This document shows positions 1,882 to 28,284 of a stretch of DNA of 64,000 bases, piece after piece. The notes beneath the pieces are model-generated. The model searched no databases. It was not told where the DNA came from and saw nothing but the letters and a program-made list of their open reading frames with translations. This DNA is from Cyanobacteriota bacterium SRBZ.bins.94.201705 (GTDB lineage: Bacteria > Cyanobacteriota > Cyanobacteriia > Cyanobacteriales > Cyanobacteriaceae). The position numbers and the translations under genes are program-made. The stretch lies in contig JAUQQP010000046.1 of the NCBI GenBank assembly GCA_030549855.1, positions 62,001 to 126,000 on the forward strand, given 5' to 3'. Each line of letters starts with the position of its first letter. Positions within the stretch are counted from its first letter, which is position 1.

Positions 1882-2085
1882 TTAAAAGAGGGGCAATCCC
1901 AACATAGCCCTTATGGTAAAATAGAAAAAGGCAATCATCCCCAGGATAAAAACAATTAAAATGGTGGCGGTGAGGGGGTTATTAAGGAGGGGTTTTACTG
2001 TCTGTGCCAGGAAGAAAAAAATGCCTAAAATCAGACTAAGCAAATAACGAGGATAACGGGCAACATTTTCCCAAAAATCATCCAT
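1882..2085 (-). CDS. DUF751 / Ycf33-type small membrane protein
   Basis: A 67-aa protein with two hydrophobic segments (about residues 14-32 and 39-58). It begins MDDFWENVARYPRYLLS, the signature of the DUF751 family, which includes plastid Ycf33. Function is unknown; it presumably sits in the thylakoid or plasma membrane. GGGGGTGA precedes the ATG. It lies directly upstream of rbfA on the same strand. Confidence 0.8.
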   Translation of the reverse strand: MDDFWENVARYPRYLLSLILGIFFFLAQTVKPLLNNPLTATILIVFILGMIAFFYFTIRAMLGLPLF

Positions 2086-2172
2086 GAAAAATCACCCCCA
2101 AGGAACAATGGTTCCTATAATTGTAACCCCCCGAAAACGGTTTAGCAACAACCCTGTCGGCGGCTATGAGGG

Positions 2173-2976: not shown

Positions 2977-3128
2977 CACACAATTTCAATGGTGGATTTT
3001 ATAATTGCTTACAATAATACCAGGGCAAATGACGCTATCATATAAGAACAACGAGATTAGATTTCCATTTTGCCCCCCTTTTTTAATGTTAAACAATTCA
3101 GGCGGAAAAATAAATAGCCCATAGGAAG

Positions 3129-4212: not shown

Positions 4213-4292
4213 GGTTTTCCCTTTTATTTTGCTCTTGGGGGATAATGTTTCTATTATGCCATCTAATCTTTATTTTATCTTTAAAAAAACAC

Positions 4293-6572: not shown

Positions 6573-6581
6573 AGGGGAAAA

Positions 6582-7133: not shown

Positions 7134-7239
7134 TATATCTCTTCTTGTTGTAGGTATTCTCCACTATTCACTATTGTAGGCGATAATCGGAACTTAAGAC
7201 GAATTCTCACAGTCAATGGTATGATGGTCTAGGATGCCT

Positions 7240-9084: not shown

Positions 9085-9748
9085 TGGGGGGTTTAGCCAC
9101 CAGGGAGACTAGAGTTTTCTCTTCTTGGGGGGTGAGGAATCGCCACTGGCCTGGTTGTAACCCCTCCAGGGTAAAATGGAGGGAGGGGGTAACTCCTATT
9201 TTAACTCTTACCAGACGTAGGGTTGGGTAGCCTACTGCCGCCGTCATCCTTCTTACTTGTCTGTTTCTGCCTTCAGTGAGGGTTATCTCCAGCCAGGCGG
9301 TGGGGATGCTTTTCCGATAGCGGATGGGAGGGTTTCTGGGGGGTAATTCTGGTTCTGATTCTAGCATACGTACTATAGCCCTTCTTGTTTTTTTTCCCTG
9401 GATTATCACTCCTCTTTCCAGTTGTCTTAGGGCTTCCTCATCCGGTATATTTTCTACTTGTACCCAATAGGTGCGTGGGTGGGCATTTTTGGGTTCACAA
9501 AGACGGTGTTGTATTCTACCATCATCGGTTAACAGCAGCAACCCCTCACTATCCAAATCTAGTCTCCCCACTGGGTAGACATTAGGTATTGGGATATAGT
9601 CTTTGAGGGTTTCTCTTTCTCCTCTCTTTGGGCTATTATCGGTAAACTGACACAACACATTATAGGGTTTATAAAACAGAATGTAGGTGTATCCCACTTG
9701 CCTCTTCTCCCTAGAATGCCAGTCATAATCCTGTCTTACTCTTTCCAT
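9059..9748 (-). CDS. rluE: 23S rRNA pseudouridine synthase, RluE type
   Basis: 229 aa without an S4 domain. It has the RsuA/RluE family signatures [10 protein letters not shown] near residues 26-35 and [14 protein letters not shown] (catalytic Asp64), then [10 protein letters not shown] near residue 175. The expected role is pseudouridylation of 23S rRNA (position 2457 in E. coli numbering, by analogy). AGGGGG precedes the ATG. It is divergent from the DUF2079 gene with only 26 bp between starts, and its 3' end overlaps the pseudokinase gene by 26 bp. Confidence 0.88.
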
Positions 9749-9774
9749 CCCCCTAGCGAATTATAAAGGACATC

Positions 9775-11199
9775 ATGGTGAAATTCAAGAGATATTTTAC
9801 TGGATTTAATCTCTATCTTTTGTTAGGTTTTTTTATCCTATTCATCTCTAGTATAACTCGTCATTTGTTGTTTCACTCTGGGGCTTACGATTTAGGGATT
9901 TTTGACAATGCAGTCTATCTAATCTCCCAGAGGGAATATCCCTATATAACTTTCAGAGGATTGCATATAATGGGAGACCATGCAGCCTTTATCTTCTACC
10001 CGATAGCCCTATTATACTCCCTATATCCCTCAGTATATTGGCTGTTTTTTATTCAATCTTTATCCCTGTCGTTGGCCGTTTTGCCAATAAGAAAACTCTG
10101 TGAAATATTTGGCATTAAGGCAGAAAAAGCCAAAACAATATGCCTAGTTTATTTACTCTATCCAGTTATATTCAACGTAAATCTATTCGACTTCCATCCG
10201 GAAACAATAGCCACGCCATTATTTTTCCTTGCTGTCTTAACCAGCAATGCCTTTGGAAACAATAAACCCCCTGGAAGATGGTATTTGTTTGCGGCTAGTA
10301 TCATTTTAATCCTGGGATGTAAGGCAGTATTGTCTTTAAATGTGGCGGCGATGGGATTATGGTTATTGCTATTTAGAAACAGGAGGATTGAAGGATTAGT
10401 GGCAACATCTACAGGGTTATTTTGGTTTATAGTCGCTTCTCAGATAGTTATACCCAAATTCAGTGGCGGGGAAGCCGCAGCAGTCAGCAGGTATGCCTAC
10501 TTGGGAGATAGCGTTACAGAGATTATCTTAAATATCTTCACCAAACCACAAGCAGTTTTGTCTCATCTTTTCACTTTACCCAACCTAGAGTATCTAATTC
10601 TTCTATTTATCCCCGTTATACCTATTATTTCCTGGAGAGAATTAGATAATTTGTTTCCTGCAATTCCCACTATTGTGATTAACTTACTGGCAGATTATCA
10701 ACCACAAAAAGATTTGGTGCACCAGTATTCTCTTCCTATAGTTCCTTTTTTGATTATAACGGCCATTGCTAGTTTGAGTAGACAGAAAACTTTATTATCA
10801 AAAGACATAAAAATAAGACTTTGGGCGTTGATAATGTTTATAGCCTTGACAAGATGGACAAAATTCTTGCCTGTTATCCCAAAATCCTACTGGCGAGATG
10901 TTTACCAGTGGCAGGCAACTAGACAAGCCATAGAATTAATCAACGGCAAGGATACTGTATTTACTAACCATAGATATGCGTCTCATCTCACCCATCGTAA
11001 AATCCTTTATCTTGCCAACGAGACTATAGACTACCAGCAGGTTTTTGCCAGCAAGTATATCCTCCTCAATGTCAAAAATCCCGGCTATCCCACCTCCAGA
11101 GAGGATATGGAAAAGCTGATTAGTCTTCTGCTAGCCGATAATAATTTCACCCTAGCATACCGAAGGGATGATATATTCCTTTTTATCCGCAAAAACTAG
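9775..11199 (+). CDS. DUF2079 family polytopic membrane protein
   Basis: 474 aa and very hydrophobic, with roughly nine to ten predicted membrane segments from residue 12 onward. AYDLGIFDNAVYLIS and GDHAAFIFYPIALLY near the N-terminus are typical of DUF2079, a family related in topology to GT-C glycosyltransferases. Function is unknown; a role with the polymer-handling glycosyltransferase at 12.8-14.5 kb is only a neighbourhood guess. AAAGGA sits 5 nt before the ATG. Immediately after its stop begins a repeat-filled spacer shared with the convergent glycosyltransferase gene. Confidence 0.8.
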   Translation: MVKFKRYFTGFNLYLLLGFFILFISSITRHLLFHSGAYDLGIFDNAVYLISQREYPYITFRGLHIMGDHAAFIFYPIALLYSLYPSVYWLFFIQSLSLSLAVLPIRKLCEIFGIKAEKAKTICLVYLLYPVIFNVNLFDFHPETIATPLFFLAVLTSNAFGNNKPPGRWYLFAASIILILGCKAVLSLNVAAMGLWLLLFRNRRIEGLVATSTGLFWFIVASQIVIPKFSGGEAAAVSRYAYLGDSVTEIILNIFTKPQAVLSHLFTLPNLEYLILLFIPVIPIISWRELDNLFPAIPTIVINLLADYQPQKDLVHQYSLPIVPFLIITAIASLSRQKTLLSKDIKIRLWALIMFIALTRWTKFLPVIPKSYWRDVYQWQATRQAIELINGKDTVFTNHRYASHLTHRKILYLANETIDYQQVFASKYILLNVKNPGYPTSREDMEKLISLLLADNNFTLAYRRDDIFLFIRKN

Positions 11200-11340
11200 G
11201 CAGTAGATAATGATAAACCCCTTTATTTAACCCCTCGGCTACACCCCATCCCTATCTACCAAATCTATCTGCCTACCCCCCAACCTAACCAAATACCTAT
11301 CCGCCTCACCCACCTGCCTACCCCAACTCCTTCCCGCCTA

Positions 11341-11880
11341 CCCATCTATCTGTCTACTTATCCGCCTAACCCTCTATCTGCCATATATCTATTCACCTAT
11401 CCACCCGTATACCTACACCACCTCCTACCTACCCATCTATCTGTCTACTTATCTGCCTAACTATCTACCTTTCCACCATATATCTATCCGCCTATCTACC
11501 CGTATACCTACACCACCTCCTGCCTACCCGTCTGTCTGTCTACTTATCCGCCTAACTACCTACCTTTCCACCATATATCTATCCGCCTATCTACCCGTAT
11601 ACCTACACCACCTCCTACCTACCCGTCTATCTGTCTACTTATCTGCCTAACTACCTACCTTTCCACCATATATCTATCCGCCTATCTACCCGTATACCTA
11701 CACCACCTCCTACCTACCCATCTATCTGTCTACTTATCTGCCTAACTATCTACCTTTCTGCCATATATCTATCCACCTATCTACCCGTATACCTACACCA
11801 CCTCCTACCTACCCATCTATCTGTCTACTTATCTGCCTAACTATCTATCCCCCCACCTATTTACCCATCTACCCGTATAT
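11341..11880. repeat. 95-bp tandem repeat, about five units
   Basis: The marker CCCGTATACCTACACC recurs at 11404, 11499, 11594, 11689 and 11784, an exact 95-bp spacing each time. A diverged unit lies before the first one (from 11341, 91-bp spacing) and a broken one after (about 11871). Units also share CCATCTATCTGTCTAC and CCATATATCTATCC. One strand is nearly free of G: in 11461-11520 I count 26 C and 2 G. Units are close to identical, so this array is younger or better homogenised than the other spacers. Confidence 0.95.
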
Positions 11881-12086
11881 CTACCTACCCATCTATCTGT
11901 CTACAAGTATCTCCAGTTAGTGTGTCAAAATTTGGCCTAACCCTAGTGGTTAATCTCATTGACTAAGGGAAATTATAAGGGACTTTTTATACAACAAGGA
12001 GGCAGCCGAAAGATTAAATTGCCGTAAGCCACACCAAGCATAGACAGTCTACGAAACAAAGACAATGAAATCCCAATCGCCAGGGG

Positions 12087-12570
12087 TAAACAACGATAAA
12101 GTTAATAGGGTACACTGAAGGAAATAATAACACTGAGAGTCGATAAGACAAATACTAGGGGGAGGGAAAGACAAAGAGAAAGGCAAATACTGGCGACAAC
12201 CGGCATTACCTATTACTGGTAACGGGATTATCTAGGTTTGATAAAGCTGCCACCACAGATAGGCGGAGACTGGGGTTGTATATACGACTTTAACGCAAAT
12301 TCAAAACCTAAAGGGGCAATCTGTTGACATGCCGTAACCAGGGATAACTATTAAGGGTTTTTCTGCTTATGAATTCAAATTCCCTGCCACCAAACAGCAA
12401 GTTAGCTGATAAATTAATTGGATTATTGTCAGCCACATCCTTTGAAGGCAATAGTTGGATGGTGAGGGGAGTGGGTGCGATAATAATGCTGGGAGTCGAT
12501 AGGGGAGATAATAGAAGGAGAATGAGGAAGAGAAATCCTGAAGCCGGGATTATCTATAAACCTGCCTAGT
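12087..12570 (-). pseudogene. Decayed copies of the glycosyltransferase 3' end
   Basis: 12087-12410 aligns along its length with 12835-13190, the 3' part of the neighbouring glycosyltransferase gene, in the same orientation. Shared words include ATAAGACAAATA, CTGGCGACA/TTGGCGACG, GGGGCAATCT/AGGGCAATCT, AACTATTAAGGGTTTTTCTG/GACTATTAATGGCTTTTCTG and CAGCCACCAA/CTGCCACCAA variants. A second partial copy, 12440-12570, matches 12865-12950 (ATAATGCTGGGAGTCGATA against GTAATGATGGTGGGTATCAATA). Both carry indels that destroy the frame. Confidence 0.8.
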
Positions 12571-12819
12571 AATTATCTAGGGGAAAATTTTAACACAAAA
12601 CTACACTTGTTTTGGGCAACCAGCAGTCTGGTAATTTTTCGAGATACGCTTTCACAGTAACTAAATATAGCTGCTTTTATAACAGCTGATTTCTGGTTGG
12701 CAAAACAAAACATTATTCCACAATTACCTTCATAGCAGACAGTAGATTCGCGTGTATATGCCACCTTGGAAACCCTTCGTCGGTGGCTAGATGGAAAGAC
12801 AGACAAAAACAGGCAGATT

Positions 12820-14535
12820 TTATTTACTGGAAGGCAAACAGCGATAGAGTTGATAAGGGATACCAATGCGGTAATGATGGTGGGTATCAATAAGACAAAT
12901 ATTGGAAGAAGAGAGAGACAGAGAAGGAGGAAAATCTTGGCGACGCAACCCAGGCGCGATTAGCCACAGATTGGGGGATTTTTTAGCTACAGAATTGTCT
13001 AGATTTGAGAGGAATTGCCATACAGTATGATAGCCATTTTTGGTATTGACAAATGACCAAAACGTTGACGAAGATTGGCGCCGCTTGTACAATTCCAAGG
13101 CAAATCCTAAGCCTAGGGCAATCTCCTGGTATTTGCTGTAGCCAGAAACGACTATTAATGGCTTTTCTGCTTCTAAATTCAAGTTACCAGCCACCAATTC
13201 TGGCTTATAAGGTTTTTCAAATACCAACCCATAAACCACACACAGACTACTCAACAATCCCATCAAAAAAACAGTTAAGTATGACAGTTTTATTCCCTCT
13301 TTTCCTTTGTCTTGCCTTGGATTTTTGGGGAAGGTAAAACAGGCAGCTAGGAGAAGACAAATGGCAGGGTAGTAAACGAAATGATAACGAATAGCTGAGG
13401 TTATATCTTTGCCCAGTAAGTATATTATTAGCAAAAATTGAACCAGATTCAAGACAATAAACCCACAGAAGATAATAGTAGATTGTTGGTAGACTAAATT
13501 CCGATTGGAAAATAATTGGGGGAGTCTCTGCCAAACATCTCTGCCTAAAAAAAAGGCAAATATAAGCATCAACAAGGCGGAGGGGATAGTAAGCCAGAGA
13601 TAGGGGGTTTCCACAGGCAATGCTATAACCATCAAAACCCAACCTATCAAAATTTGGTACAAAGGAATGATATAATTGAGGAGAGTGGGTTCAAAGGGTT
13701 TAAACCACTCAGTCTCAGGGCGGGTGGAATGTTGTAACAACACCGACAGCCAAGGGGAAAATAAAATTGGAGGCAAAACACAAATATAAAAATGTCGAAT
13801 CCAAGACAATAAACACTTGACTTTTTGCCGCTGCCAATACTGCCAAAAAAACCAGAATAATAGGGCGCCAATCTGGGAAAGATATACTAGAATAAAAAAG
13901 TAGTGGGTATAGAAACCAAGAGTGGTAAAAACAACCCAAGCTAGCCAGTTTTCCGGTTTAATTTTTCCCAAACGACTGTAGTCTTGTTGCATTGATATTA
14001 GCTTAATCAGAGAAAGAATAATCAGTAGTATAGCGAGGGTGTAATGGCGGGTTTCCTGAGACAGGTAAACAGCAAAAGGGGAGACTGCCATAAATGCCGA
14101 CGCCATTAAACCAGTGGTGGCGGAAAAAGCTATCCTCCCCAAACAATACATGGAAAAAGTGGCAGCTACCCCAAATAATGCCGGTAAGAAACGCGCCTGC
14201 CATACTGTTTCCTCGAAAGACGCATTTGGCTTTATCCCTCCTAACCAAGCATGTAATAGACAAAAAAATAACGGTGGATGGGTAGATTCCCTGGATACCG
14301 TCTCCGCCACAAAAGCACAACCTTTGGGAGTAAAGGTGAAAATACCCGGCAAAAAGTCTAGGGGAAACACCTCTCCCAACGGCAGATGATTAAAACTATG
14401 TCCTAGACTAAATATAACTGTTAAAATTTCATCCCCCCAGAGGGGTTTTTTTGCTAATTCAGTCAACCTCAAAAGCAGACTTAAAATAACAACTAATCCC
14501 AGGAGTAGTACGTGTTGTTGTCTAGGCTTAGTCAT
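12820..14535 (-). CDS. GT39-like (GT-C fold) membrane glycosyltransferase
   Basis: 571 aa with about ten hydrophobic segments. Near the N-terminus KPLWGDEILTV (Asp35, Glu36) is the acidic pair found in the first lumenal loop of GT-C transferases (ArnT/PMT-like), followed by STHPPLFFCLLH, the conserved HPPL motif. It likely moves a sugar from a lipid-linked donor onto an acceptor; neither is identifiable. I start at 14535 because AAGGA lies 5 nt upstream; the frame extends to 14610 without support. Its own 3' end is duplicated and decayed just downstream (12087-12570). Divergent from speB. Confidence 0.83.
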   Translation of the reverse strand: MTKPRQQHVLLLGLVVILSLLLRLTELAKKPLWGDEILTVIFSLGHSFNHLPLGEVFPLDFLPGIFTFTPKGCAFVAETVSRESTHPPLFFCLLHAWLGGIKPNASFEETVWQARFLPALFGVAATFSMYCLGRIAFSATTGLMASAFMAVSPFAVYLSQETRHYTLAILLIILSLIKLISMQQDYSRLGKIKPENWLAWVVFTTLGFYTHYFFILVYLSQIGALLFWFFWQYWQRQKVKCLLSWIRHFYICVLPPILFSPWLSVLLQHSTRPETEWFKPFEPTLLNYIIPLYQILIGWVLMVIALPVETPYLWLTIPSALLMLIFAFFLGRDVWQRLPQLFSNRNLVYQQSTIIFCGFIVLNLVQFLLIIYLLGKDITSAIRYHFVYYPAICLLLAACFTFPKNPRQDKGKEGIKLSYLTVFLMGLLSSLCVVYGLVFEKPYKPELVAGNLNLEAEKPLIVVSGYSKYQEIALGLGFALELYKRRQSSSTFWSFVNTKNGYHTVWQFLSNLDNSVAKKSPNLWLIAPGLRRQDFPPSLSLSSSNICLIDTHHHYRIGIPYQLYRCLPSSK

Positions 14536-14671
14536 ATATTCCTTGTGCAATTCCAAGAAAGCTTCCCATACAGAAATTAGTTTATCTTCTTCCTCTCCGC
14601 CTATACACAAAATACTCCGGCTTTTCCGTGATTACATTTCTAGATTTTTCTGGATAAAGGAGATAGAATTG

Positions 14672-14680
14672 TGTTATAAT
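14672..14680 (+). promoter_or_regulatory. Extended -10 promoter element for speB
   Basis: TGTTATAAT is an extended -10 (TGn plus TATAAT at 14675-14680); no good -35 is seen 17 bp upstream. It overlaps the upstream in-frame ATG at 14679, so transcription would begin near 14687 and that ATG would not be in the message. This supports ATG 14727 as the speB start. Confidence 0.5.
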
Positions 14681-14726
14681 GCCTCGGTTAAACAGAGAGA
14701 AAAAAATAGATATTTTAAGGGAGAAA

Positions 14727-15611
14727 ATGAAACAATTTCTAGGCTCAGAAACCACATCCACCTACGAAAAGGCACATGTAGTTATTTTACCAATTCCCTA
14801 CGAAGCCACCACTACCTACAGAAAAGGATGTGAAAATGGGCCAGGGGCTATACTAACCGCCTCAGATCAGTTAGAATGTTATGATGAGGAGTTAGGCATT
14901 GAAACCTGCTTCCAGACACCCATCTACACCCACGAATACATAGCCGACACCCGCGTCAACCCCCACCTCACCCCCGAGGAAATGCTAGATGTCACCACCG
15001 CCACCGTCAAAAGACTCATCCGAGACGGCAAGTGGGTTGTTGCCCTTGGCGGAGAACACGCTATAACTACTGGTGTAGTGAGAGCTTATAGAGAAAGCAT
15101 ACCTGAAACATTCACAGTAGTACAAATAGATGCCCACGGAGACATGAGGCATGAGTATGAAAATTCCATACACAATCATGCTTGTGTGATGAGGAGGGTG
15201 TTAGAATTGGGATTACCGACACTGCCGGTAGCTATTAGGGCAATTTGCAAGGAGGAGGCGGAGTTAATCAAAGCAAAGAATATACCGGTGATTTGGGCAA
15301 GGGAGATACATTGTAACCCCCATTGGATGGCAGAGGCAATAAGTAAAATCACCACTAGGAAGATTTTTATCACCATAGACTTGGATGGCATTGACCCTAG
15401 TATAATACCAGGAGTAGGTACACCTGAGCCAGGGGGTTTAGACTGGTATCAAACGTTGGCATTTTTGCGTCTGTTATGTCGTCACTTTGAGGTAATTGGC
15501 TGTGATATTATGGAATTAGCCCCCATCAAGGATTCCGTTGTCTCCGAATTCACTGCAGCCAAACTAGTCTATAAACTAATAGGCTACTGGCATACAGGCA
15601 AACAAAAATAA
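14727..15611 (+). CDS. speB: Agmatinase / ureohydrolase family
   Basis: 294 aa ureohydrolase. Manganese-site motifs are visible: GGEHAI (108-113), DAHGD (135-139), a His-rich segment SIHNHA, and TIDLDGIDPS followed by PGVGTPEPGG. This is the agmatinase/arginase pattern, closest to agmatinase SpeB, which gives putrescine and urea. Guanidine or other guanidino substrates cannot be excluded, since several cyanobacterial paralogues differ in substrate. AAGGGAG lies 4 nt before ATG 14727. A longer frame to 14679 exists, but a promoter element overlaps that ATG. An 8.7-kb gene-free stretch follows. Confidence 0.85.
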   Translation: MKQFLGSETTSTYEKAHVVILPIPYEATTTYRKGCENGPGAILTASDQLECYDEELGIETCFQTPIYTHEYIADTRVNPHLTPEEMLDVTTATVKRLIRDGKWVVALGGEHAITTGVVRAYRESIPETFTVVQIDAHGDMRHEYENSIHNHACVMRRVLELGLPTLPVAIRAICKEEAELIKAKNIPVIWAREIHCNPHWMAEAISKITTRKIFITIDLDGIDPSIIPGVGTPEPGGLDWYQTLAFLRLLCRHFEVIGCDIMELAPIKDSVVSEFTAAKLVYKLIGYWHTGKQK

Positions 15612-15969
15612 ACCATCTTTCCCCGGTATTTCAATCTTATAAACTACAACTATATCGTTGCCCCTTTTCAGGGGGGAGGGGGGTTTTCCTGTTATCTTGC
15701 TAGCCACCCCGGGGAGATTATCCGATTACATTCAGCTAACTTTCCTGGGAAAATCAGCTTGTTGTATTTCTGGCAGCCTAGGAAGAGAAGTCATGTTATC
15801 ATATACGCCGAAGTAAAGTATTGTGGCATTTCTTCTGTATACCCCATTCCACTGTGGGGGAGTAACCCTGTTATCTTTCCTGCCACTGTTTGTTATCCAA
15901 TCACCGTGATTTCTGACTACCCTTTTCCACTCCGAGTCATATTCTGGTATTCCTCCCCACTCCCCAAGA

Positions 15970-16860
15970 CGGCTAAACACATAAAACCAATACAAGGCAA
16001 CCCCCTAGCTGCCAGTCACAAAAAAAACTACTCAGCAACAATCACCACCTGCCAGAAAACAAGACTCTCTAACACGGTTAATAACAGAGACTGGTGTAGA
16101 CGTCAACTACAACACGGCTGCAGAGGGGAGTATAACCATCAACATTAGCTGCTAACAACGAGACTAGTAGTTTAGTTTAACAATCCAGGAAGGAAGACTA
16201 AACCTATAAAACCAACACTCCCTTATTTTAGTAGCAAGTCACAACCACAACTGGGTAATCCCCTACAACATGGCATTAACTACAGACACTAGTATTACCC
16301 TAAAAACTGGTGGCTGACAACAAGACTGGTAGTTTGGCTTGACAATCCGGGAAGAGTGAATACATAAAACCAACTTCCCACCATAGTAGTCAGTCACAAA
16401 AACGACTCTAACTCCCCCTTGCTAGAAGTATCCACGGGTTAACGACAGAAGGCAGTATGACTGTCAAAGCCAGTAGCCGACAACAAAACTGCTAGTTTAA
16501 CAATCCGGAAAGACTAAGCCGATAAAACCAATACCCCGGCAATTCATTCTGGCAGCAAGTAACAAAGACAATTCGACAACCACTAACAGAAAAAACACCA
16601 ATGAAACAGTTGATGACAGACAGTCAGTCAGTGAGTGGTGTAACCGTCAACTATAACATAGCAGCCGAGGCTTGTATAACCAATCAATACCAGTAGCCAA
16701 CAATAAGACTAAAAGTTTGGTTAGTATTTTGGTTTGACAACCCAGACAGTCAACCAATATGCCGGCAACTCCCTCTAGTGTATATTTGATAGATAACTGA
16801 CAGCAGTGGCTTCTCAAGAAAGCTAAAACGCCATTGGTGGATGCCATAAACTGTCACCTC
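15970..16860. repeat. Degenerate ~165-bp tandem repeat family
   Basis: A recurring block reads approximately CAACAAGACTGGTAGTTT, then GACAATCCGG, ATAAAACCAA, and AGCAAGTCACAA. Its starts fall near 16157, 16318, 16482 and 16699, spacings of 161, 164 and about 217 bp. A further partial unit with ACATAAAACCAATAC lies near 15978. Units are clearly related but differ at many positions and by indels. No encoded product is apparent and I could not trace this family to a neighbouring gene. Confidence 0.7.
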
Positions 16861-19064
16861 CTGCAAAAAAACCTATGACAGAGACTACTACCCACCCTCT
16901 CACCAGTAACAAATACTTTTGACTACCAGCCACATTTAACAGAGACTACTATCCCCCCCATGAATCCCCCACTCACAACCAACAATTTTGACTACCTGCC
17001 ATATCTGTTGTGGGGAGACTTATGACAAAAATTACTATCCACCCCCTCACCAGTCACAATTAATGCTACTATAGTTTATGCCGTAGATTACTACAAACAG
17101 TCACTGGTGGCTGATGATTGCCAAAACCCCCAACTGATGACATCAACCACCATTCCAAAAATCCACTCATTTGGTTGGTGGCAATGGCAACAACAGTTGT
17201 AACCAGTCTGGCAATTGCTGCCGGTGTTAGGCAATTGAATTTTGAATAACCCCATCTGACGGCTAACAAAAATTTTTCCAACCCCAATTACTAACCCTAG
17301 CAACTGATAGTTATCTCTGACAGGATAATAATAGCAACTGGTGGTGCCCGTAGCCAACAGGAGTAACTAGTGGTAGAAGAATCTAGTAGCATTCTGGTGG
17401 CTGACAGAGAAAGTCTTTGACAGTCAAACAAAACTAACCAGTTTCAAAACCTTTTGCAGTTTTTAGAGGAAGCAAACCATCAGTCTGGAGTAAAGACTAG
17501 TAACTGATGGGAAACAATAGACTGCTGTAATAACTCAATTATTCGAGTCATCGCTGGCAGCCATTTCTCCGCCTTACCGACAACTGATGGCAATGACAGT
17601 CAGTTTTGCAAACACTGGCAGCTACGGAAAAACACCGACAAACTGTTGTTTATTACGACTGCCGGTGGCTTATGACAGAAACCCAATAGTTAGCAACTCG
17701 TGGGCTTATTATAATTCCCCACCTCTATTACAGTCAACGTCAGCAACCAACCAGCCAACAGTCAAAAAACTCTCTTAGTCTGTTATGACAACCATATCTA
17801 TTAACTGACAACAACCACCCCCATTCCCGTGACTAATACTAGCCAACAACACACACAATTAATCCGGCAACCAACAACGACAGGCGGTGACAAGAAGACT
17901 GGCAAAAATGATAACGTAGATTGGTGGTTTAACAGTTTATCCTCACAGACAAAATTAACCCTGTAAGCCTACGCCTATTCCCCTTATGTTTTTTGCTAGT
18001 TACTTCATGTTTGCCACTTATCTCTACTAATCACGACAACTGGAAACAACCATTCTGACGGCTAATGGCAGTGGCTAGTGATAAAAACCATCCTCAGCAA
18101 CAATCATTTTAAATACATTTAGCCGGTAACAGTAACAGTGACTCAGCTATCATGACTGACAATGACAACTATTGCGGGGATGAGACTTACAACTGGCAAC
18201 AGTAACAACTAGTCAGTCAACCAATATTAGTTGGAAGCCAATGACATGGATGCTGCCGTCAAAAAACAAACTGTGAGTATGGCATGGATGACAAACAACC
18301 AGCATGACAATCTTTTCTACCGGTTTGACATTGACTAGCTTTGGGGAAAAAGTGGACTACTATGGCAATGACTGATATGATAATCACCACTAGAGGGATA
18401 ACCATGGCAATAACTAATGGTAATAACTGTTGTAGGGATGACTGGCATGATAGCTTTCCCTTCCACATACCGCCAGTGGTTGGGAATAACAACAGTCATT
18501 TAGATGACAACCTCCACTGGTAGCTAACAAAAGTAACAACAATCCCCTGCTAGGGGGTGACTATGACAATCATTCTGACAACCAATACCAGCAAATGGTG
18601 GCATCCGACAATTTGTCTGGCAACCAATACCACTAGAAACCACTTATCCAGCTAGACTACTTGCTAACAGTAGTAGCAATACCAATAAGCCAGAGGTAAA
18701 GCCAACCTCACTAGGCTATAGCTATCCTCTTTTTTCCCCGACAACCCAAGGGAGGTAACGGCAGACTAGACTATATAGACAGCCAATAGCATGCCACTTC
18801 TGGGTGTCAGAAACCGCCAACAACAATGGCAACTGTTGTGATAATTTAGCCTTAGTTTCTTCTTATATCTGGTTAACGCCACTCACATGGATGCCTACTG
18901 CCAACCTACAGTGTCAAAGGATAGCAATGGCATAACACCCCCATTTTCCCAGCCAAATAGACTAGTTTTTTATTGTTATCCACCACTACTCCCATGATAT
19001 TCTTGTCAGCCACTAGACTAGTCTCTTTATTGTTTGTGTTTTTCACTTTCCCGGCGTCACCCAA

Positions 19065-19440
19065 CTGGCTTGTTATTTCTTTTTCTGACCACTTTTATGG
19101 CAGCCTAGGGGCTTATAATTGTTGTAGACTTATACTCTCCTTTCCATGCCATTACTGTTAGACTGGTGGATGACTAATATCACCTCCCCTCCGCTACTGG
19201 CTAGTCTACAATAAAACCTATATCTTTTACAGACGCCGTAAGTGTTTTTAAATCCAAAATCTCTACCCTCATCTAATGGTTGAAAGCCACTGCCAACGGT
19301 GTAGGAAAACAACAGGTGGGGGATACCGTTACCCCTGTTGTCAACGGTAATGTCAATATTACCAACATTTGTGAACAACAGTACGATTTTTGCCTCTTCT
19401 GAGGAGAAAAAGACAGCCATAGGCTTTCCCTACAACGCGG
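19065..19440 (+). pseudogene. Decayed fragment of cofH start with its upstream spacer
   Basis: From about 19065 this matches the DNA before and into cofH at about 35585-36010. The coding part from 19277 reads in the cofH frame for 41 codons, 28 of them identical to cofH residues 34-74, including VGDTVT and NICEQ. It then hits TGA at 19400 beside a roughly 9-bp deletion, and matching resumes through GGCTTTCCCTACAAC. The radical-SAM cysteine motif is broken (CEQQYDFC for CEQHCGFC). The surrounding spacer is A/C-rich, whereas this block is T/C-rich like the spacer before the intact cofH. Confidence 0.88.
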
Positions 19441-21287
19441 AGTGACAAACACACACCAATAATCCAGAAGGGGAATAAACCACTCCAACAACAAGGTAGA
19501 TACCAATAAACCGGGGTTAGTAGATTGTAACAAGGGTTAACAGGGGTAACTGTAACTGTAAGTGAATTTCACAGGCAGACTGGTATAACAAGCCAACGTT
19601 ACAACGCCGGTATGACAACAAGAAACTACCTAGAAGGCAATCCACGGGGGTAGTGGCTTAAAACGCTGGTATCCTGGCATACACCGGCATCAAAGTCAAT
19701 CAGTGGTTGTGGCTTTTTCCCCCATGACAGACGACTAACGGCAAAAGCAAACTAATATCACAAGACAATTCCTAGAAACAGAAACGACAACTAACTACAA
19801 TACAATCTTCTGAAAAGACTACTTTGACAAATGAAGGATTATTGAAAGACACTATCCATGGAGAATACAAATTCAAGGAGATAATAGTGGCAACGACAAA
19901 ATACAAGTTACATAACCATTCTCAAAGACAAATGCAATGACATACTGATGAGGGAAAATGCCAGTGGCAGATGGGAAAACCCACCAGGGGGAAGAGATTA
20001 TTCTGGCAACTGGCAACAACACCGGCAACAACCAACAGGAAGAAACAATCAAAAAAAAGGGAATAATTAACCTGTCAAATAGCCTTTAGCCACTACCGGG
20101 AAACACAATTAACCCATGACATAGGCATAACAATCAACCTCAGCGACTTTTAGCAAGAAGAAACTGGTGTCACGACAAGCCACCGGGAAGACAATTATAG
20201 TAACTAATGGCCAACACTACTGGCAACCAGTGTGACTACTGACAACCCCTGACAAACAATAGATAGACAATTACAACACTTCCGACTGACAACTATAGAC
20301 AGTCTGATGAATAAATGATAAACTAGCACCAAGAAACTGCTATGAGAATAGACGTCAATTGGCTAGCAGTCTGATAAGACAACACTAAGACGCCTACATG
20401 AAAACCCCTGTGGCTGACAACAGAAATAACCGAGACATTGATATGACAGTCAGTCTGTTGTGAGTGGTTGATGATAGAAACAAGTAGGAGACGTCTATGT
20501 ATACAACAAATCAACCCCCGGCAAAGAATATACTGGCATAACAGTTACTCCATCTGTGGGAGTTGGTGGAAACAAACAACTAAAAAGGGTAACAGTCAAT
20601 AGTTGTTAGTTATAGCCAAGACAACCAACTATAGACAGACATTATTGACATTGACAGGCGACTGACGGCAAAAGCCAACTAACACCATACCAATAGACAC
20701 CTCCATAACGGTTAGTGTTGGTAATCAGTAGCTAGTGAGGGTAATTAGCAGTGTGAGAAGTCATCTCCCAGGCAACAACGGAAGAGAATTATCATTAAAC
20801 CTCCACTCACTGGCTGCCGACTCTAAACACTAATGACAACTCAAGAAGAGTTATTAGCCTACTTCCCAGTAGCCGACAAGAGACACCAGTGACAAAGAAA
20901 ACGGTGGCTACCAGAAAATATCAATGGCAGGGGAAACAACTTATTGGCAAACCACCACTTTTCCATGAAAAAAACACCAGTGGCAGCCAGCATAAGAGGG
21001 AGAAATGGCAAGCTGTAGACAATGCCAAAAACCAATACAATCATAATGAGAAAACAAACACACAAAAGTAGCCAAAAAACAAGCATGCCAACCAACAAAC
21101 AACAGACAACCCCACTGATAAAAAACAAGCCAACAGACGTGGATAACAGGCAACAGTAGATGACTTAATAGGTAAACACATAGCCTGTAAGCAGAGACAA
21201 CAATTAACCCCAAATGGCTGCCTGCATTAGTAAACAGACAGTCAGAAAGCAGAGACAAACAGATAGACGGAGGGGATGACAATTTTT

Positions 21288-21720
21288 AATAGCTTAGGTA
21301 GAATTAGACTCCATCAAGCTACCCCCCATCTTATCCCATCTGTAAGACAATAAAGGGTTAGAAAGGCAATGGTTGAAGCCTCGACTACCAGACATAAAAA
21401 CAAACAAAAACAGATGTCTGCCAACAAACAGACAAGCCACCCCCGGGTAAGTAACAAGCCACAGAGGATAACCAAATCAGTAAACACATAGCCTGCAGAG
21501 GAAAACAAACACCTACGGGAAACAGACAACAACCAACCGCAGCCAGCTGACGCCTGCAAGCAAACGGGTAGCCGGAAGACGGAGTGGAAATTGTTAACAT
21601 TCTAGGGAGAATAAGACTCATAGTTAGCAACAATAGTCTTGATTTCCCATCGGCTGCAAGACAGTAATTCGAGAGTGAGAAAGACAATGGTTGAAGTCTT
21701 GACTCAACACCATAAACATA
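21288..21720 (+). pseudogene. Two tandem decayed copies of the aminopeptidase HEAT segment
   Basis: 21288-21400 and 21602-21720 each match about 110 bp of the M1 aminopeptidase gene near 27500-27620, in the HEAT-repeat coding part. Shared words include CAAGACA, AGTCTTGATTTCCCAT against AGTCTTAATTTCCCAT, GAAAGGCAATGGTTGAAGCC against GAAAGGCAATAGTTAAAGCC, and CTTGACTCAACA. The copies sit in larger tandem units that also share AGTAAACACATAGCCTG (21172, 21479; diverged at 21877) and AACAGATGTCTGCCAA (21410, 21795). Frames are broken by indels. Confidence 0.8.
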
Positions 21721-23456
21721 TTCCCCTATAATTCCCTTGGGAGTATTATCCCTCGCGGAAATAAGAGTTACCCTGTCAGGTGGATGACAGACAAAAACAG
21801 ATGTCTGCCAATAAACAGAAATAAACAGATAGGCAATAGGCTTAGGTGAAAGGCAAGGGAAGATACTCAAATTGAGTAAACAGATAGCCGGTGGGTGGGG
21901 GTAACAACCACTGATAAATGCCTGCAAATAAGTATATAGCCGCAAAGCCAAGACGACAACCAACGACAGATGCCTGGGTGTATTGGCGGCTTTGGCTGAG
22001 GCGACAAGGGGGTAGGGGTGACAACAAACTAGTATGATGGAGAAGGTGATGCCACTAACGGCTGATGGGGATAATAACGGAAATAAGTGAAATGGCAAGC
22101 AAACAACACTAGTAGGCAAGACAGACAAGACACGTCGTTGGCAGTAACCAGTGGCATGCTAATTTAGCATTTTTTTTGTTAGTCACACCGCGGCTTCTGC
22201 TGACAGATGCAGTTTTGAGTAAAGAAACAAAAACAAATTATCTGACATCTGAAAAAGCTATGCCACTGACGGGGAAAGCCAGTGTAGAAGTCGATGGGGA
22301 AATAGATAGAAGATACATATGGTTGGCAATGAGTGGCAGCAGTGACGCAAAAAGAGGCAAGCTTTTTAACAAAATACTGATACAGTGGGTGGGATAAAAA
22401 CCAATTTCTTGTAGCATACCACTGGAAATAAAAACCACCTTCATGGGGAAGCCAGTATAAAAACCCATTCTAAACAATACACCGCTTTGACAATCCACAT
22501 CATTCCGGCTATGATTACAGCTGACAACTCCAACAACCCCTTGGCAATTCTTTTTTCTCCGCAGCCAGTGTGTGTCGGGGGGTTGACAGACATCTCTAAC
22601 AACAAATACAAAAGGCTAACAAAATAATAGGCATATGAATAGCCGGTGACAGAAAGTGGTGACTTAAAAGCGGGAAAGTCAGATAAAGGTAATAAAATTA
22701 CTAACCCACCCCACTGGAAATAGCCAGTAAGAGAAAAAGACTAGTTGACTGACACAACAAATCAATCACCCAATAAGATGGCAAGACACACGGTTAACCA
22801 CAGACACTGGCATGACAGTCAGTCAGTATTCTATACCAGGGGTGACACCCATGACGACAGGCAACCACCGTGAAGGCAATTCCAGTAACCAGTAACAGAC
22901 ACTAATGGCAACCATTTAATTTTTGACAACGCACAAGTATAATTATAGGCCCCTTTTCACAAACAACAGACAGAGGATTACCACACTGTCGAATTGTAGC
23001 CATAGATGGTATATTCTGACAACTCTCCCTCCGACAAAACAAACCTAAGACACTGCCATTACAATCCACACCAGTCGCCAGTCTTATAGGGTAATATTAG
23101 CCCATGGAAAGGGGGTTGATAACAGGGACAACTAGAGTTAGTATGAAAATATGTGCCATGTGGGGTTAATAACAGAAGCAAGCGATACAATGGCATGACA
23201 TAAAAGTCTGTGCTATACATGGTTGTGGATAACAAAAAAACAAATAAGATGCTGGCAGGTGTGTGGAGGTTGGTGGAAAGAAACTACTGACAAAACACTG
23301 ACAAGAAAGTCAATGGTTGTGGTTTAGCTGTTGGCAAGACAACCACAAAAAACAAATATTATTAATGACTAACTGGCGGCAAAAGCAAACCAACCCAGAC
23401 AACAACAAACTAATCTTCGGATACTGGTATAGAAATATACTTCTCGGCTGACAAAT

Positions 23457-23985
23457 CTAGCCACTGGTATGCAGCGATAATCAACACTACTAGTCTGTGA
23501 TGAGAATGACTCATTCTGACAACCTACAAAAACCATCGACAGAAGATGCCATTGACAGGGTAAACACACAGTAGTCAGTCTTCTGCCACTGACAAAGCCT
23601 ACGAAGCAATCCACTGTCACGGCTGATAGATTCCACGCCAGTCGCAACCCCTCTACCGCCGCCACAATAGTCAACACCACTAGTCGGTGGGAATAAATTA
23701 TTTTGACAACCCACACACCAACACATTGGATGCTGGCGACAGGATAAAAACACCTCTGACTGGCAATAAATTTCCAAGACAGCCAACAAAACAAAGACAC
23801 TGCTGGAAATAAGTAGCAACTGAGACAAACTACAAAATAGTTGTCGCCAAACCCACTCTGCCTGCAGTAAGTGGGAGTAAAACTCGGCAATACAAGTTGC
23901 CTTGGTGACTGTAGTAATCAACAATCTGACAACCACTGAGACAAACGGGAAAAAGATACAAAACAGTTGTCGCAACCAACTATTA
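23457..23985. repeat. Degenerate direct repeats upstream of sqr
   Basis: Two related blocks begin near 23460 and 23658 (ATAATCAACACTACTAGTC / ATAGTCAACACCACTAGTC, then a run ending TTCTGACAACC / TTTTGACAACC), about 200 bp apart. A second pair, TACAAAATAGTTGTCGC near 23831 and TACAAAACAGTTGTCGC near 23957, is about 126 bp apart. No gene is visible. Confidence 0.6.
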
Positions 23986-24232
23986 GCTAGCCTGACAACC
24001 ACGATGGCTTATGGGGGATACAAGGCTGTCTGTTGTGACTAACAATAACTGATACCTGATGGAAATAGTAAACAAATACTGATGGCAGAGAAAACACACA
24101 AACCAACGGTGGTTGATAACAGGTTGTGGGGTAATCCTCTTTTTTCCCTCAACCGACTGGCAGATGACAAATTCTAATTCAACCCCCCTATGGTTGCAAC
24201 AACCCCCCACTGACAGCCATTATAACCTCCCT

Positions 24233-24299
24233 TGTACATCTAGTACACAACCATAACCTGCCCCTGACACTTGCTTAAAATATCATATAGTAATATAAT
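24233..24299 (+). promoter_or_regulatory. sqr promoter with upstream inverted repeat
   Basis: TTGCTT (24271-24276), a 17-bp spacer and TATAAT (24294-24299) form a near-consensus sigma-70 promoter 43 bp before the sqr start. An inverted repeat TGTAC-ATCTA-GTACA at 24233-24247 lies about 24 bp upstream of the -35 and could bind an activator or a sulfide-responsive regulator. The regulator is not identifiable from sequence. Confidence 0.6.
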
Positions 24300-24341
24300 C
24301 AAATGATAAGAAATGTTAAAAAGCTGAAAAGGAGAAAAACA

Positions 24342-25622
24342 ATGGAAAATATCATCTATAGCCATCAAATAGTAATAGTAGGTGGTGGTAGCGGCGGGAT
24401 TACAACAGCTGCCCAACTGTTAAGAAAAGATAAGAATTTAGACATTGCTATAATAGAACCCTCAGAAAAGCACTATTATCAACCAGGATGGACACTAATG
24501 AGTGGCGGGTTGATGAAACCCGAAGAGATGGTAAAAGACAAAAAAGACGTAATCCCCAAGGGGGTAAACTGGATTAAAGACTATGCTGTATCCTTCGACA
24601 CCGATAAGAATCTCATTATCACCGCCTCGGGCATAGGGGTACAATATCAGTATCTCATTCTCTGTCCAGGAATTCAACTGGATTTACACCTAATAAAAGG
24701 GTTAAAGGAAACCCTGGGCAAAAATGGTGTTACTAGTAATTATGCCGGCTTAGGCGCCTATAGTTGGGAGTTGATTAAAAACTTTAAGGGGGGTAATGCT
24801 ATTTTCACCTATCCCGCCACTCCCATCAAGTGTGGTGGTGCTGCCCAAAAAGTCATGTATATGGCAGATGATGTATTCAAGAGTAAAAGTGGCGTCGGCG
24901 TAAACACCAAAGTAATGTTCTGTACCGCAGGAACTAAACTCTTTGCAGTACCAGCCTACTCTAAAGCCCTAGAAGAGATTGTAGAAAGAAGGGGCATTGA
25001 AGTCAAGTATCAACATAACCTCAAGGAAATTAAGCCGGAAACCAGAGAAGCAATATTTGACGTCACCACCCCCGAAGGTGTCAAAGAGGTAAGCATTAAA
25101 TATGACTTACTACACGTAGCACCCCCCATGAGTGCCCCCGATTTTATCAAAAAAAGTCCCTTTGCGCAACAAAATGGCGACGGTGGCGGCTGGATAGATG
25201 TAGATCAATACACTTTACAACATAAACGTTACGCGAATGTTTTCGGGTTGGGAGACGCCACCTCCCTCCCCACTTCCAAAACTGCAGCGGCGGTGCGCGC
25301 CCAAGTCCCAGTTGTGGTAGAAAATTTATTAGCGTTAATGAAAGGCAAACCCCTCACTGCCCGTTATGACGGTTATACCTGTTGTCCTATTATAACGGGC
25401 TACAACTCTGCTATCTTCGCTGAATTCGACTACGAGAATATTCCTATTTCCTCTTTCTTTATTGACCCCACTAAGGAACGTTATAGCATGTTTTTGGTCA
25501 AACGTTATCTCCTCCCCTGGTTATACTGGAATCGCATGCTAAAAGGAAAACCCCTTGAAACCGAGATGTACAAGAAACTGGGATTGCGTCAGTGGCGACA
25601 AAAGGCACCATCTTTTGCATAA
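24342..25622 (+). CDS. sqr: Sulfide:quinone oxidoreductase, type II
   Basis: 426 aa FAD-dependent disulfide oxidoreductase. It has an N-terminal dinucleotide fold VIVGGGSGGI (11-20), the segment YYQPGWTLMSGG typical of SQR, and a second FAD contact VFGLGDATSLPTSKTAAA (from residue 300). Cys164 (IKCGGAAQK) and Cys347/348 (GYTCCP) are placed as the redox pair of type II (mitochondrial SQOR-like) enzymes. It oxidises sulfide and passes electrons to plastoquinone at the membrane, giving sulfide detoxification or electron input. AAGGAG lies 7 nt before ATG 24342; a longer frame from 24303 lacks similarity. It has its own promoter and a terminator hairpin, so it is probably monocistronic. Confidence 0.9.
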   Translation: MENIIYSHQIVIVGGGSGGITTAAQLLRKDKNLDIAIIEPSEKHYYQPGWTLMSGGLMKPEEMVKDKKDVIPKGVNWIKDYAVSFDTDKNLIITASGIGVQYQYLILCPGIQLDLHLIKGLKETLGKNGVTSNYAGLGAYSWELIKNFKGGNAIFTYPATPIKCGGAAQKVMYMADDVFKSKSGVGVNTKVMFCTAGTKLFAVPAYSKALEEIVERRGIEVKYQHNLKEIKPETREAIFDVTTPEGVKEVSIKYDLLHVAPPMSAPDFIKKSPFAQQNGDGGGWIDVDQYTLQHKRYANVFGLGDATSLPTSKTAAAVRAQVPVVVENLLALMKGKPLTARYDGYTCCPIITGYNSAIFAEFDYENIPISSFFIDPTKERYSMFLVKRYLLPWLYWNRMLKGKPLETEMYKKLGLRQWRQKAPSFA

Positions 25623-25642
25623 CGGAGGCCATCAGTTATACT

Positions 25643-25680
25643 AGAGGAAATCCATCATACCAAGTGGGTTTCCTCTCTTT
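25643..25680 (+). terminator. Terminator hairpin after sqr
   Basis: AGAGGAAATCC (25643-25653) pairs with GGGTTTCCTCT (25666-25676) and is followed by CTTT. It lies between the sqr stop and the ATG of the aminopeptidase gene, touching the latter, so it can also act as a leader structure over that start. Confidence 0.65.
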
Positions 25681-28284
25681 ATGAATTACTCTTTATACCC
25701 CGATGCCGACGACAAGAGGAATTTTGAGTTACCCGGTAGTAAGCCTCATTATAACCCAGACCTCTACGGCAAGGTACAACACATTTCCCTTCATTTAGAC
25801 TTAGACATCCCCCGTCAGAGTCTAAGCGGCATCTGTCACATTACCCTCACCCCCATCCGCCATTTCACCCATCTAACCCTTGATGCTGTCGACTTACACA
25901 TCCAATCAGTATTTGTAGATAATGTTAGTCATCCCTTTGACTACGACGGCAAAACCCTCACCCTCCACCTTCCTTCCCCCCCATCCCTCTCCCAAGACTT
26001 AACCATTACCATCTCCTATCATAAGGAAAAACCACAACGGGGGATTTATTTTATCTCTCCTGATGAATATTATCCCCATAAACCTACTCAGGTTTGGACT
26101 CAGGGGGAAGATGAAGATTCCCGTTATTGGTTTCCCTGTTTTGATTTCCCTGGACAATTAGCTACCTCCGAAATTATAGTACAAGTCCCCCCCGATTATA
26201 TTGCTATCTCCAATGGCGAGTTGATCAAAACAGAAGAAAAAGACGGCAAAACTGTCTACCACTGGCTACAACCACAACCTCATCCCCCATACCTAATAGC
26301 TTTAGCTGTAGGGAAATTTGCCATAATTGAAGAACAATGGCAGGATATTCCCGTGGTTTATTATGTGGAAAAAGGCAGGGAGAAGCAAGCAAAAATAAGT
26401 CTTGGAAAAACTCCCAGGATGATTCAATTCTTCAGTGAGAGATATGGCTACCCCTATCCCTACGAAAAATATGCCCAAACATGTGTAGAAGACTTCATAT
26501 TCGGAGGTATGGAAAATACCTCTGCTACCATTCTAACAGCCCGTTGTCTTCTGGATGAAAAAGCCTCCCTTGATGATCGTAACACGGAAACTCTCGTTGC
26601 CCACGAATTGGCCCATCAGTGGTTTGGCAACCTAGTAGCCATCAAACACTGGAGTCATGCCTGGATAAAAGAAGGCGCCGCTTCCTATGCAGAAGTATTA
26701 TGGATAGAACACGAATACGGGCAACAGGAAGGGTTATACTATCTATTCCAACAGGCGGCTAGCTACCTAGAAGAAGACTCCTCCCGTTACCGTCGTCCCA
26801 TTGTAACAAATGTTTACCGTGAGGCTATTGAATTATATGACCGTCATCTTTACGAAAAAGGCTCTTGTGTTTATCATATGATTAGGGGAATTTTGGGGGA
26901 GGAATTATTCACTAAGTTTCTCCATACTTTTGTCAACGATAACGCCTATAAGACTGTAGAAACAGTGGATTTGTTAAGGGCAATAGAAAAAGCTACTGGT
27001 TATAATTTAGCACCTCTGTTTGAACAATACGTCTTCCGCGGAGGGCACCCTGACTTTAAAATTACCTACCATTGGGACAATGATACCAATATTGCCTCTG
27101 TCACCGTTAAACAAAAGCAGGCTAGGGAAGAAAACGGTAAGCCTCTCCACTTGTTTTCTCTCAAAATCCCCCTGGCTTTCGGTTATATCCAACCAGACAA
27201 TAAACCTCAATTAAAAACCTTTATTTTAAAACTGGAAAAACCTGAACAAACCTTCTACTTCTCCCTAGATAAAAAGCCAGACTTTATCTCCTTTGATGTG
27301 GGCAACTACCACCTCAAAACCGTAGAATTGGATTATGGTTTTGCCCAATTGAAGGCACAACTGTTATATGATCCTGATATAATATCTCGTATCTATGCGG
27401 CGAGGGCCATCGGCAAAAAAAACAACATAGAGGCTGTAAACACCCTTAAAGAGGCATTGGCAAAAGAGACATTTTGGGGAGTTAAAGTAGAAATCATTGA
27501 CAGCCTAGGCAAAATCAGACTCAATCAGGCAACAACAGTCTTAATTTCCCATATGCAAGACAATAATCCCAGAGTAAGAAAGGCAATAGTTAAAGCCTTG
27601 ACTCAACATAAGAACATCTCTAGCTATAATACCCTCAAGAATATTATTGTTCAGGGAGATGAAAGTTATTTTGTAGAGGCAGAGGCTATTAGTGGCATTG
27701 GGAAAATTGTCGCCACTGGCAGTCTACAAGACAAACAAGAAGAAGTTATTTCCCTTCTCCAAAGCATTCTCATAGAAAGAGACAGTTGGAATGAAATCAT
27801 ACGTAGTGCGGCTGTCAGGGGATTAAGTTATCTCAACACCAATCCCAAAGCCGCTGACATTATTAGTCAATACACCAGCCTCGGCATCCCCCAACCCCTA
27901 CGTCAGACAGCCATCCGTTGTCTTGGAGAAGTAGCCACTGCCCAAACCCCTGATAAAATTACTTCTATTCTCGACACCCTAGAGTCTATTCTCCCAGAAA
28001 CCTTCTTTTTTACCCAGATGTCCCTTATAGATGCCTTGGGTAAAATAGAACATCCAAAAGCTGTGTCTATGTTAACAGATTTACTAGCCAATGCTACTGA
28101 CGGCAGGGTTAGACGTCACGGAGAAGAAACTCTCCTTCGTCTGCAGGAAAAACTGGGTAAGGATAAGACTCTTCGTCAACTACAAGAGGAAGTGGAAAAG
28201 CTTAAACAGGAGAATCAGGAATTACAAAGTCGTCTTGCATTACTAGAAACGAAAAATAAACAAGCCTCAATGCCGGTAACATGA
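25681..28284 (+). CDS. M1 family aminopeptidase with C-terminal HEAT repeats
   Basis: 867 aa zinc peptidase. FGGMENTSAT (exopeptidase GxMEN motif, about 276-285) and HELAHQWFGN (His308, Glu309, His312) with the third ligand in KEGAASYAE give a complete active site. Residues about 575-825 are HEAT-like helical repeats (SLGKIRLNQATTVLISHM, ALGKIEHPKAVSMLTDLL). The end is a coiled coil (about 830-860: LRQLQEEVEKLKQENQEL). Cytosolic, as no signal peptide is seen. It probably trims peptides; the HEAT region may dock a partner. The ATG is next to a terminator hairpin with no clear ribosome site. Its stop overlaps the next start (ATGA). Fragments of its HEAT part are found, decayed, at 21.3-21.7 kb. 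Confidence 0.88.
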   Translation: MNYSLYPDADDKRNFELPGSKPHYNPDLYGKVQHISLHLDLDIPRQSLSGICHITLTPIRHFTHLTLDAVDLHIQSVFVDNVSHPFDYDGKTLTLHLPSPPSLSQDLTITISYHKEKPQRGIYFISPDEYYPHKPTQVWTQGEDEDSRYWFPCFDFPGQLATSEIIVQVPPDYIAISNGELIKTEEKDGKTVYHWLQPQPHPPYLIALAVGKFAIIEEQWQDIPVVYYVEKGREKQAKISLGKTPRMIQFFSERYGYPYPYEKYAQTCVEDFIFGGMENTSATILTARCLLDEKASLDDRNTETLVAHELAHQWFGNLVAIKHWSHAWIKEGAASYAEVLWIEHEYGQQEGLYYLFQQAASYLEEDSSRYRRPIVTNVYREAIELYDRHLYEKGSCVYHMIRGILGEELFTKFLHTFVNDNAYKTVETVDLLRAIEKATGYNLAPLFEQYVFRGGHPDFKITYHWDNDTNIASVTVKQKQAREENGKPLHLFSLKIPLAFGYIQPDNKPQLKTFILKLEKPEQTFYFSLDKKPDFISFDVGNYHLKTVELDYGFAQLKAQLLYDPDIISRIYAARAIGKKNNIEAVNTLKEALAKETFWGVKVEIIDSLGKIRLNQATTVLISHMQDNNPRVRKAIVKALTQHKNISSYNTLKNIIVQGDESYFVEAEAISGIGKIVATGSLQDKQEEVISLLQSILIERDSWNEIIRSAAVRGLSYLNTNPKAADIISQYTSLGIPQPLRQTAIRCLGEVATAQTPDKITSILDTLESILPETFFFTQMSLIDALGKIEHPKAVSMLTDLLANATDGRVRRHGEETLLRLQEKLGKDKTLRQLQEEVEKLKQENQELQSRLALLETKNKQASMPVT

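Follow-up and report, generated by a model that had tools for sequence, protein, structure and literature searches.

How did a broken piece of cofH come to lie in a long spacer, 16.56 kb from the intact gene and in the same orientation? The piece was noticed in a window of 64,000 nucleotides (G000:C4:62001-126000) from a cyanobacterial genome of 2.87 Mb in 51 contigs. Intact cofH, at 35742-36884 on the plus strand of this window, encodes 380 aa and exceeds the NCBIfam cut-offs of NF005609, TIGR03551 and TIGR00423. The first-pass annotation had placed a decayed copy of its 5' end at 19065-19440. The copy is real, but it starts ~410 bases further left, at ~18652, and ends at 19436 (Table 1). For comparison we searched 40 genomes of relatives, one of which, G001, belongs to the same genus.

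Table 1 Features around the decayed cofH copy, in window positions.
Feature	Position	Strand	Basis and remarks
Decayed duplicate (~569 bases of cofH-upstream spacer plus cofH codons 15-88)	18652..19436	+	Source 35214-36006; alignments
Coding part of the decayed copy	19221..19436	+	Matches 35782-36006
Source of the copied spacer	35214..35741	+	Adjoins degenerate repeats; alignment and nhmmer
Left block, collinear with G001 C89 (rc 11-15376)	2140..18645	+	Its last parts are agmatinase (14679-15611) and the spacer that follows this gene downstream
Right block, collinear with G001 C108 (rc 55684-70710)	19859..36865	+	Spacer, SQR-like, aminopeptidase-HEAT, CHASE2, repeat spacer, cofH
Left joint	18640..18655		Blast collinearity ends at 18645; copy begins at 18646-18652
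Right joint	19437..19645		Copy ends at 19436; recognisable SQR-upstream spacer from 19646
Repeat stretch with 14 family A units of ~120 bases (E below 1e-3, ~1.3 kb in total)	30560..35170	+	Profile matches

In a whole-genome search the coding part matched its source at E 3.1e-33, with 165 of the 216 aligned bases the same as in cofH. The intact gene and the partial copy were the sole matches of the cofH region at E 0.001. Nhmmer tiles for the copy reached 7.9e-35, and 18765-19449 paired with 35336-36040. Sequence upstream of cofH had been copied too, as first noted: 18652-19218 aligned with 35214-35740 over 482 columns at 67.2% identity, with a score of 591 against at most 160 in six block shuffles. 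Under an alternative scoring the match reached 320, with none of 300 dinucleotide shuffles above 149, and the left edge moved to 18555. The right edge (19436, corresponding to 36006) falls just past cofH codon 88. This confirmed a decayed cofH copy far above chance. The difference in composition from the surrounding DNA, also pointed out in the first-pass annotation, was real: within the 8.7-kb spacer, T excess was largest in segment 18833-19401, which scored 79 where 500 shuffles reached at most 39. This segment covers only part of the copy.

The coding part has decayed in several ways. The start codon was lost within a 39-base deletion directly before the coding part, codon 32 is an in-frame TAA, and the copy reaches only codon 88 of cofH's 380. 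Two lesions had already been read correctly, namely the loss of the second iron-sulfur cysteine (Cys68 to Tyr, TGC to TAC) and a TGA beside a deletion, which we located at codon 74, next to 9 missing bases that held codons 75-77. Intact cofH has C64, C68 and C71, the three cysteines of the CX3CX2C motif. A functional CofH, a radical SAM protein of F420 biosynthesis, has the three cysteines and an open frame; the copy has neither. What had been given as 28 of 41 identical codons holds for residues: in codons 33-73, 28/41 residues are the same as in cofH, but only 23/41 codons. Over codons 15-88, the copy shares 34/71 codons and 46/71 residues with cofH.

The substitutions point to relaxed constraint. 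For codons 15-88, dN between the copy and its own cofH was 0.22, against 0.066 between the two functional genes, and pairwise dN/dS of the copy and its own cofH was 0.37. The copy had changed 18 of the 39 codons that are identical in both functional genes, 13 of these 18 to a nonsynonymous codon or a stop. Like other partial-gene-duplicate pseudogenes, it comes from a resident gene and has decayed. It is a dead duplicate of this known kind, and nothing was seen that would give it a separate function. An RNA element in the copied upstream region was considered and rejected; at Rfam gathering thresholds the window contained three tRNAs, and no match lay close to that region.

The first-pass annotation had called the copy dispersed and inserted, which is incomplete, as the fragment sits at the joint of two syntenic blocks that are separate in G001. 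At the left block, blast collinearity ends with 18607-18645, which matched C89rc 15338-15376 at 87% over 39 bases. The agmatinase-downstream spacer (15.76-18.65 kb) aligned with the agmatinase-pheT spacer of G001, with scores of 586, 288 and 276 against a null of at most 149. In the right block the identity to G001 C108 was 83% for 24271-30647 and 86% for 35779-36865. Its upstream spacer aligned with G001 from 19837-19859 (1275, 604 and 361, against at most 174 in shuffles), and a family C repeat unit marks the SQR-upstream spacer from 19646. The SQR-like gene of G001 (C108rc 58868-60140) was apparently frameshifted near its N-terminus, giving two tblastn pieces in different frames, which could be a sequencing error.

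Alignment of the two regions, as had been proposed, placed the edges of the copy at ~18652 and 19436, although not exactly. At the left joint nhmmer carries the left block to 18719, and the other scoring starts the copy at 18555; these alignments overlap, so that the left edge is uncertain by up to ~100 bases. The right joint is not tight, with 209 bases (19437-19645) between the copy and the recognisable SQR spacer. Target-site duplications, which had also been suggested, were not seen when the junction letters were inspected by eye. The repeat search (minimum length 30) listed no inverted arms at 18.6-19.5 kb, and no transposase was present among the 11 window proteins scanned. An origin of the fragment from an IS or transposon was rejected, since none of these three signs was seen around it.

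In G001, agmatinase is joined to pheT through a spacer, and comF to the SQR spacer. In G000, the agmatinase spacer is joined to the SQR spacer instead, and comF neighbours pheT on contig C25, 1.58 kb apart. The adjacencies are thus swapped: a reciprocal exchange separates the two genomes, and one of its two joints is where the copy is found. The comF-pheT spacer on C25 weakly resembles the break regions of G001 (199 against a null of 154, and 195 against 152). An inversion could account for the rearrangement. That the contig was misjoined in assembly is unlikely, given a copy that has diverged by about a quarter and the presence of the reciprocal joint.

Where the genes could be placed in relatives, their order gave no answer as to the ancestral arrangement. 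Leaving G000 aside, relatives in which both comF and pheT were found had them on different contigs or >300 kb apart. Agmatinase was placed in 8 genomes, and in the stretches of five relatives it stood beside none of pheT, comF and SQR. One relative, G011, had an SQR-like match of 58% identity on the opposite strand, 5.5 kb from comF. We took this match for the paralog that is present in G000 (59%) and G001 (58%) as well. We infer that the joint in G000 is derived.

The age of the copy bears on this point. The best matches of the copy among the 40 genomes were its own cofH (140 bits), the cofH of G001 (122) and, next, a match of 61.7 bits. A cofH of another organism closer to the fragment, named at the outset as the finding that would imply independent transfer, was therefore searched for and not found, and transfer was rejected, with the tree in agreement. 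With 12 outgroup genomes, the fragment grouped with its own cofH (UFBoot 93); in the AU test two alternative positions stayed acceptable (p 0.17 and 0.063). Dating by synonymous divergence, as had been advised, gave dS values for codons 15-88, from only ~45 synonymous sites, of 0.59 between fragment and own cofH, 0.91 between fragment and G001, and 1.08 between own cofH and G001. The two cofH genes differ at 38 sites; of these, the fragment agreed with its own gene at 20, with G001 at 14 and with neither at 4.

The spacer was less clear as a clock. Under the scoring that gave 591 for the own spacer, the copied spacer had no match to the cofH spacer of G001 above shuffles. With +5/-4 scoring, whose alignments are inflated by the skewed composition and usable only beside their controls, the copy weakly matched the cofH spacer of G001 (187 against at most 137 in reversed controls). 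The own spacer at 35082-35449 also weakly matched it (207 against at most 147). With the G001 spacer resembling both the copy and the own spacer, an age read from the spacer is blurred.

Copying after the split from G001 appears to be the better reading; dS and the tree favour it, and the alternatives are not rejected. It would place the origin of the joint in G000 as well, again as the better reading and short of proof. Derivation from the resident cofH is supported by these comparisons. Its direction, left undecided in the first-pass annotation, is clear: intact cofH comes after CHASE2 in both species, so that copying went from 35 kb to 19 kb.

It is very improbable, in our judgement, that the gene order of G000 is the ancestral one, that the fragment predates the split, and that G001 lost it in a rearrangement of its own. 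Such a history could draw on a polarity that the outgroup genomes leave unfixed, on the AU test, which does not reject the fragment outside both cofH genes (the p of 0.063), and on the G001 state at 14/38 informative sites. However, dS and the tree place the fragment with its own cofH, and only the own spacer matched the copied one above shuffles under the same scoring.

The joint at which the cofH fragment lies unites stretches that G001 keeps apart, and this position suggests copying during chromosome repair. The fragment may be a rearrangement scar, made by a template-switch insertion at a break and then left to decay, a reading on which our confidence is evenly balanced. A chromosome break would have been repaired by a switched-template process (MMBIR-like). 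The end from the agmatinase spacer would have copied ~790 bases at the cofH locus, from ~35214 to codon 88, before synthesis returned to the broken end on the SQR-spacer side. The copied piece contained no complete gene and went on to decay. Template switching would account in one event for the joint, for a copy in direct orientation and not far from its source, and for the absence of further duplicated genes, if the copy was indeed made together with the joint. A copy of nearby sequence at a novel junction, which this process predicts, is what we found between the two blocks, provided that the joint in G000 is the derived one. The junction letters were compared by eye, at ~65-76% identity, which is too low to read microhomology.

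The same order of parts would be left by a 16.57-kb unit (19437-36006) that was first duplicated in tandem and later cut by the rearrangement, a course of events we regard as rather unlikely. Copy 1 would have ended at cofH codon 88, followed by the start of the next unit; the break would have fallen just upstream of its cofH fragment, and the redundant copies of SQR, aminopeptidase and CHASE2 on the comF side would have been deleted. Such a history would yield the direct orientation and a copy cut off at codon 88 with SQR-upstream spacer behind it, and it fits the order of parts as well as a template switch does. Local direct duplication is also usual in the sampled DNA of the genus (63 direct against 2 inverted pairs). 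The 16.15-18.6 kb stretch resembles the SQR-upstream spacer with a score of 346, above 25/25 first-order and 25/25 second-order Markov nulls, but equalled by 1/25 third-order nulls. Nhmmer paired 22666-23070 with 16500-16896 (E 6e-4) and 17096-17426 with 20591-20933 (E 3.5e-4), yet the stretch aligns better with the agmatinase-pheT spacer of G001. A visible start of copy 1 of the 16.6-kb unit at 16.4-17.8 kb, which had looked suggestive against shuffles and low-order nulls, was rejected on these two grounds, the third-order null and the alignment with the agmatinase block.

A tandem duplication would further require that the deletion was complete, as no second SQR, aminopeptidase, CHASE2 or family A or C spacer was traced on C25. 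There, tblastn at E 1e-10 found none of the three genes, and families A and C had no match below E 0.18 in 4001-24000. A search of the own genome with 16100-24250 returned, besides itself, only cofH, the aminopeptidase gene and one 24-base match.

The fragment could also be an independent insertion, before or after the rearrangement, that shares the joint by chance or through a common fragile spacer. Two decayed aminopeptidase fragments in the same spacer, away from the joint (21254-21406 and 21575-21777), lend this some weight. In a spacer of 8.7 kb, however, the left edge of the cofH fragment lies within about ten bases of the end of the block (within ~100 by less favourable alignments), and no target-site duplication was seen by eye. 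We think such a coincidence quite unlikely, and retain copying during repair of the break as the preferred reading.

The spacer that holds the fragment (15612-24302) is 8.7 kb without ATG-started ORFs of at least 120 aa, and has a strong A-over-T excess; among the 383 kb sampled, no such stretch is longer. At 15.7-24.0 kb, six TTG/GTG/ATG ORFs (96-247 aa) had no Pfam match at E 0.1, and a coding reading of the spacer was rejected on this ground. DNA outside ATG-started ORFs of at least 120 aa makes up 37% of the window and 24% of the 383 kb sampled. The two aminopeptidase-HEAT pieces are decayed direct copies of 27466-27675. They sit in a local duplication of ~330 bases, between 21091 and 21745, where the main alignments with G001 break and one weak alignment crosses.

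Next to the source of the copied spacer, degenerate family A repeats lie between CHASE2 and cofH. The first unit (30560-30654) overlaps the 3' end of CHASE2, as it does in G001, where the family lies at C108rc 65082-69480, also between CHASE2 and cofH. Each genome had 14 matches at E below 1e-3, all on the plus strand and all in this spacer or the end of CHASE2, in a search that covered the window, its flanks, G001 C108 and 16 further stretches of G000.

To describe local duplication we compared non-coding DNA with itself and counted pairs at E below 1e-3, at most 20 kb apart and with at least one side less than half coding. On C4, 23 direct and 2 inverted pairs were counted out of 37 listed (29 direct, 8 inverted); left out were pairs between coding sequences, a single pair whose two sides were each over half coding, and pairs >20 kb apart, in which both orientations occur. 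Nine other contigs or stretches of G000 gave 25 direct pairs and no inverted one, including a C25 pair 13.3 kb apart (21066 with 7717) that looked spurious (score 147) yet remains in the count. G001 had 11 direct and 0 inverted pairs on C108, and 4 and 0 on C89 1-36000. Seven relatives, sampled in twelve stretches that total 193.9 kb and do not exceed 19.1 kb each, had 7 direct pairs and 10 inverted ones. Fisher's test for 63:2 against 7:10 gave p 5e-7, and for 31:0 against 3:3, at E below 1e-8, p 0.003; both values are indicative only, as pairs within one spacer are non-independent and a composition skewed between the strands can promote weak matches in direct orientation. The sample behind this pattern was about 14% of the genome.

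Several further repeats were seen. On C25, 11686-11889 and 27912-28174 are a coding piece and its decayed non-coding copy, direct and 16.2 kb apart across the comF-pheT joint. In the window, the 3' part of a mannosyltransferase-like gene (12815-13199) recurs nearby as a direct, non-coding copy at 12068-12395, at most 0.8 kb past the gene's stop codon. The top-scoring tandem array of the window (11337-11847) is young, consists of a C/T-rich unit of 95 bases repeated 5.4 times with 94% matches, and follows a DUF2079 gene. A dispersed family of ~150-250 bases at C4 10540, 55820, 107661, 126851 and 159259 occurs in both orientations, unlike the local direct duplicates; one copy is window 45661-45801.

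It is possible, though we hold it only tentatively, that duplication of the direct, local kind is unusually active in this genus, through backward template switching or unequal exchange. It would fill spacers with gene pieces and arrays and also mark joints, and the cofH fragment would be one of its products. Local duplicates in non-coding DNA, nearly all of them direct, together with repeats that begin at the end of a gene, offer a concrete route to long bacterial non-coding spacers.

As a pseudogene the cofH fragment belongs to a known kind; what is informative is its place. To our knowledge, old bacterial rearrangement joints rarely retain a readable record of their formation. This joint carries a pseudogene that can be roughly dated, its reciprocal joint is known and the source lies 16.6 kb off, which makes repair models testable. 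Open-access keyword searches, which are no proof of absence, returned no report that we recognised as matching, either for filler or templated insertions at rearrangement joints or for cyanobacterial or bacterial spacers built of duplicates or gene fragments.

Long intergenic DNA is known from another cyanobacterium, Trichodesmium, with 40% non-coding DNA (PMC4649490). The G000 spacers resemble that type of expansion in their length; what was seen in them are direct local duplicates and degenerate repeats. For the joint, the nearest likeness in the part of the literature drawn on here is with non-recurrent rearrangements in E. coli and human, where nearby sequence is inserted at junctions, and inversions and duplications are combined (PMC3161906). 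The MMBIR junction insertions of E. coli amplification and human rearrangements, as described in the same source, share with our case a nearby piece at a new junction. The cofH copy differs from those cases in being the presumed trace of an old, decayed event of ~790 bases, in direct orientation and too diverged for microhomology to be read. As a gene remnant, it resembles other pseudogenes from partial (5'-end) duplication in that a resident gene was copied incompletely and the copy has stops and indels and lacks an active-site residue. Unlike the usual ones, it brought its upstream spacer along and sits at a synteny joint.
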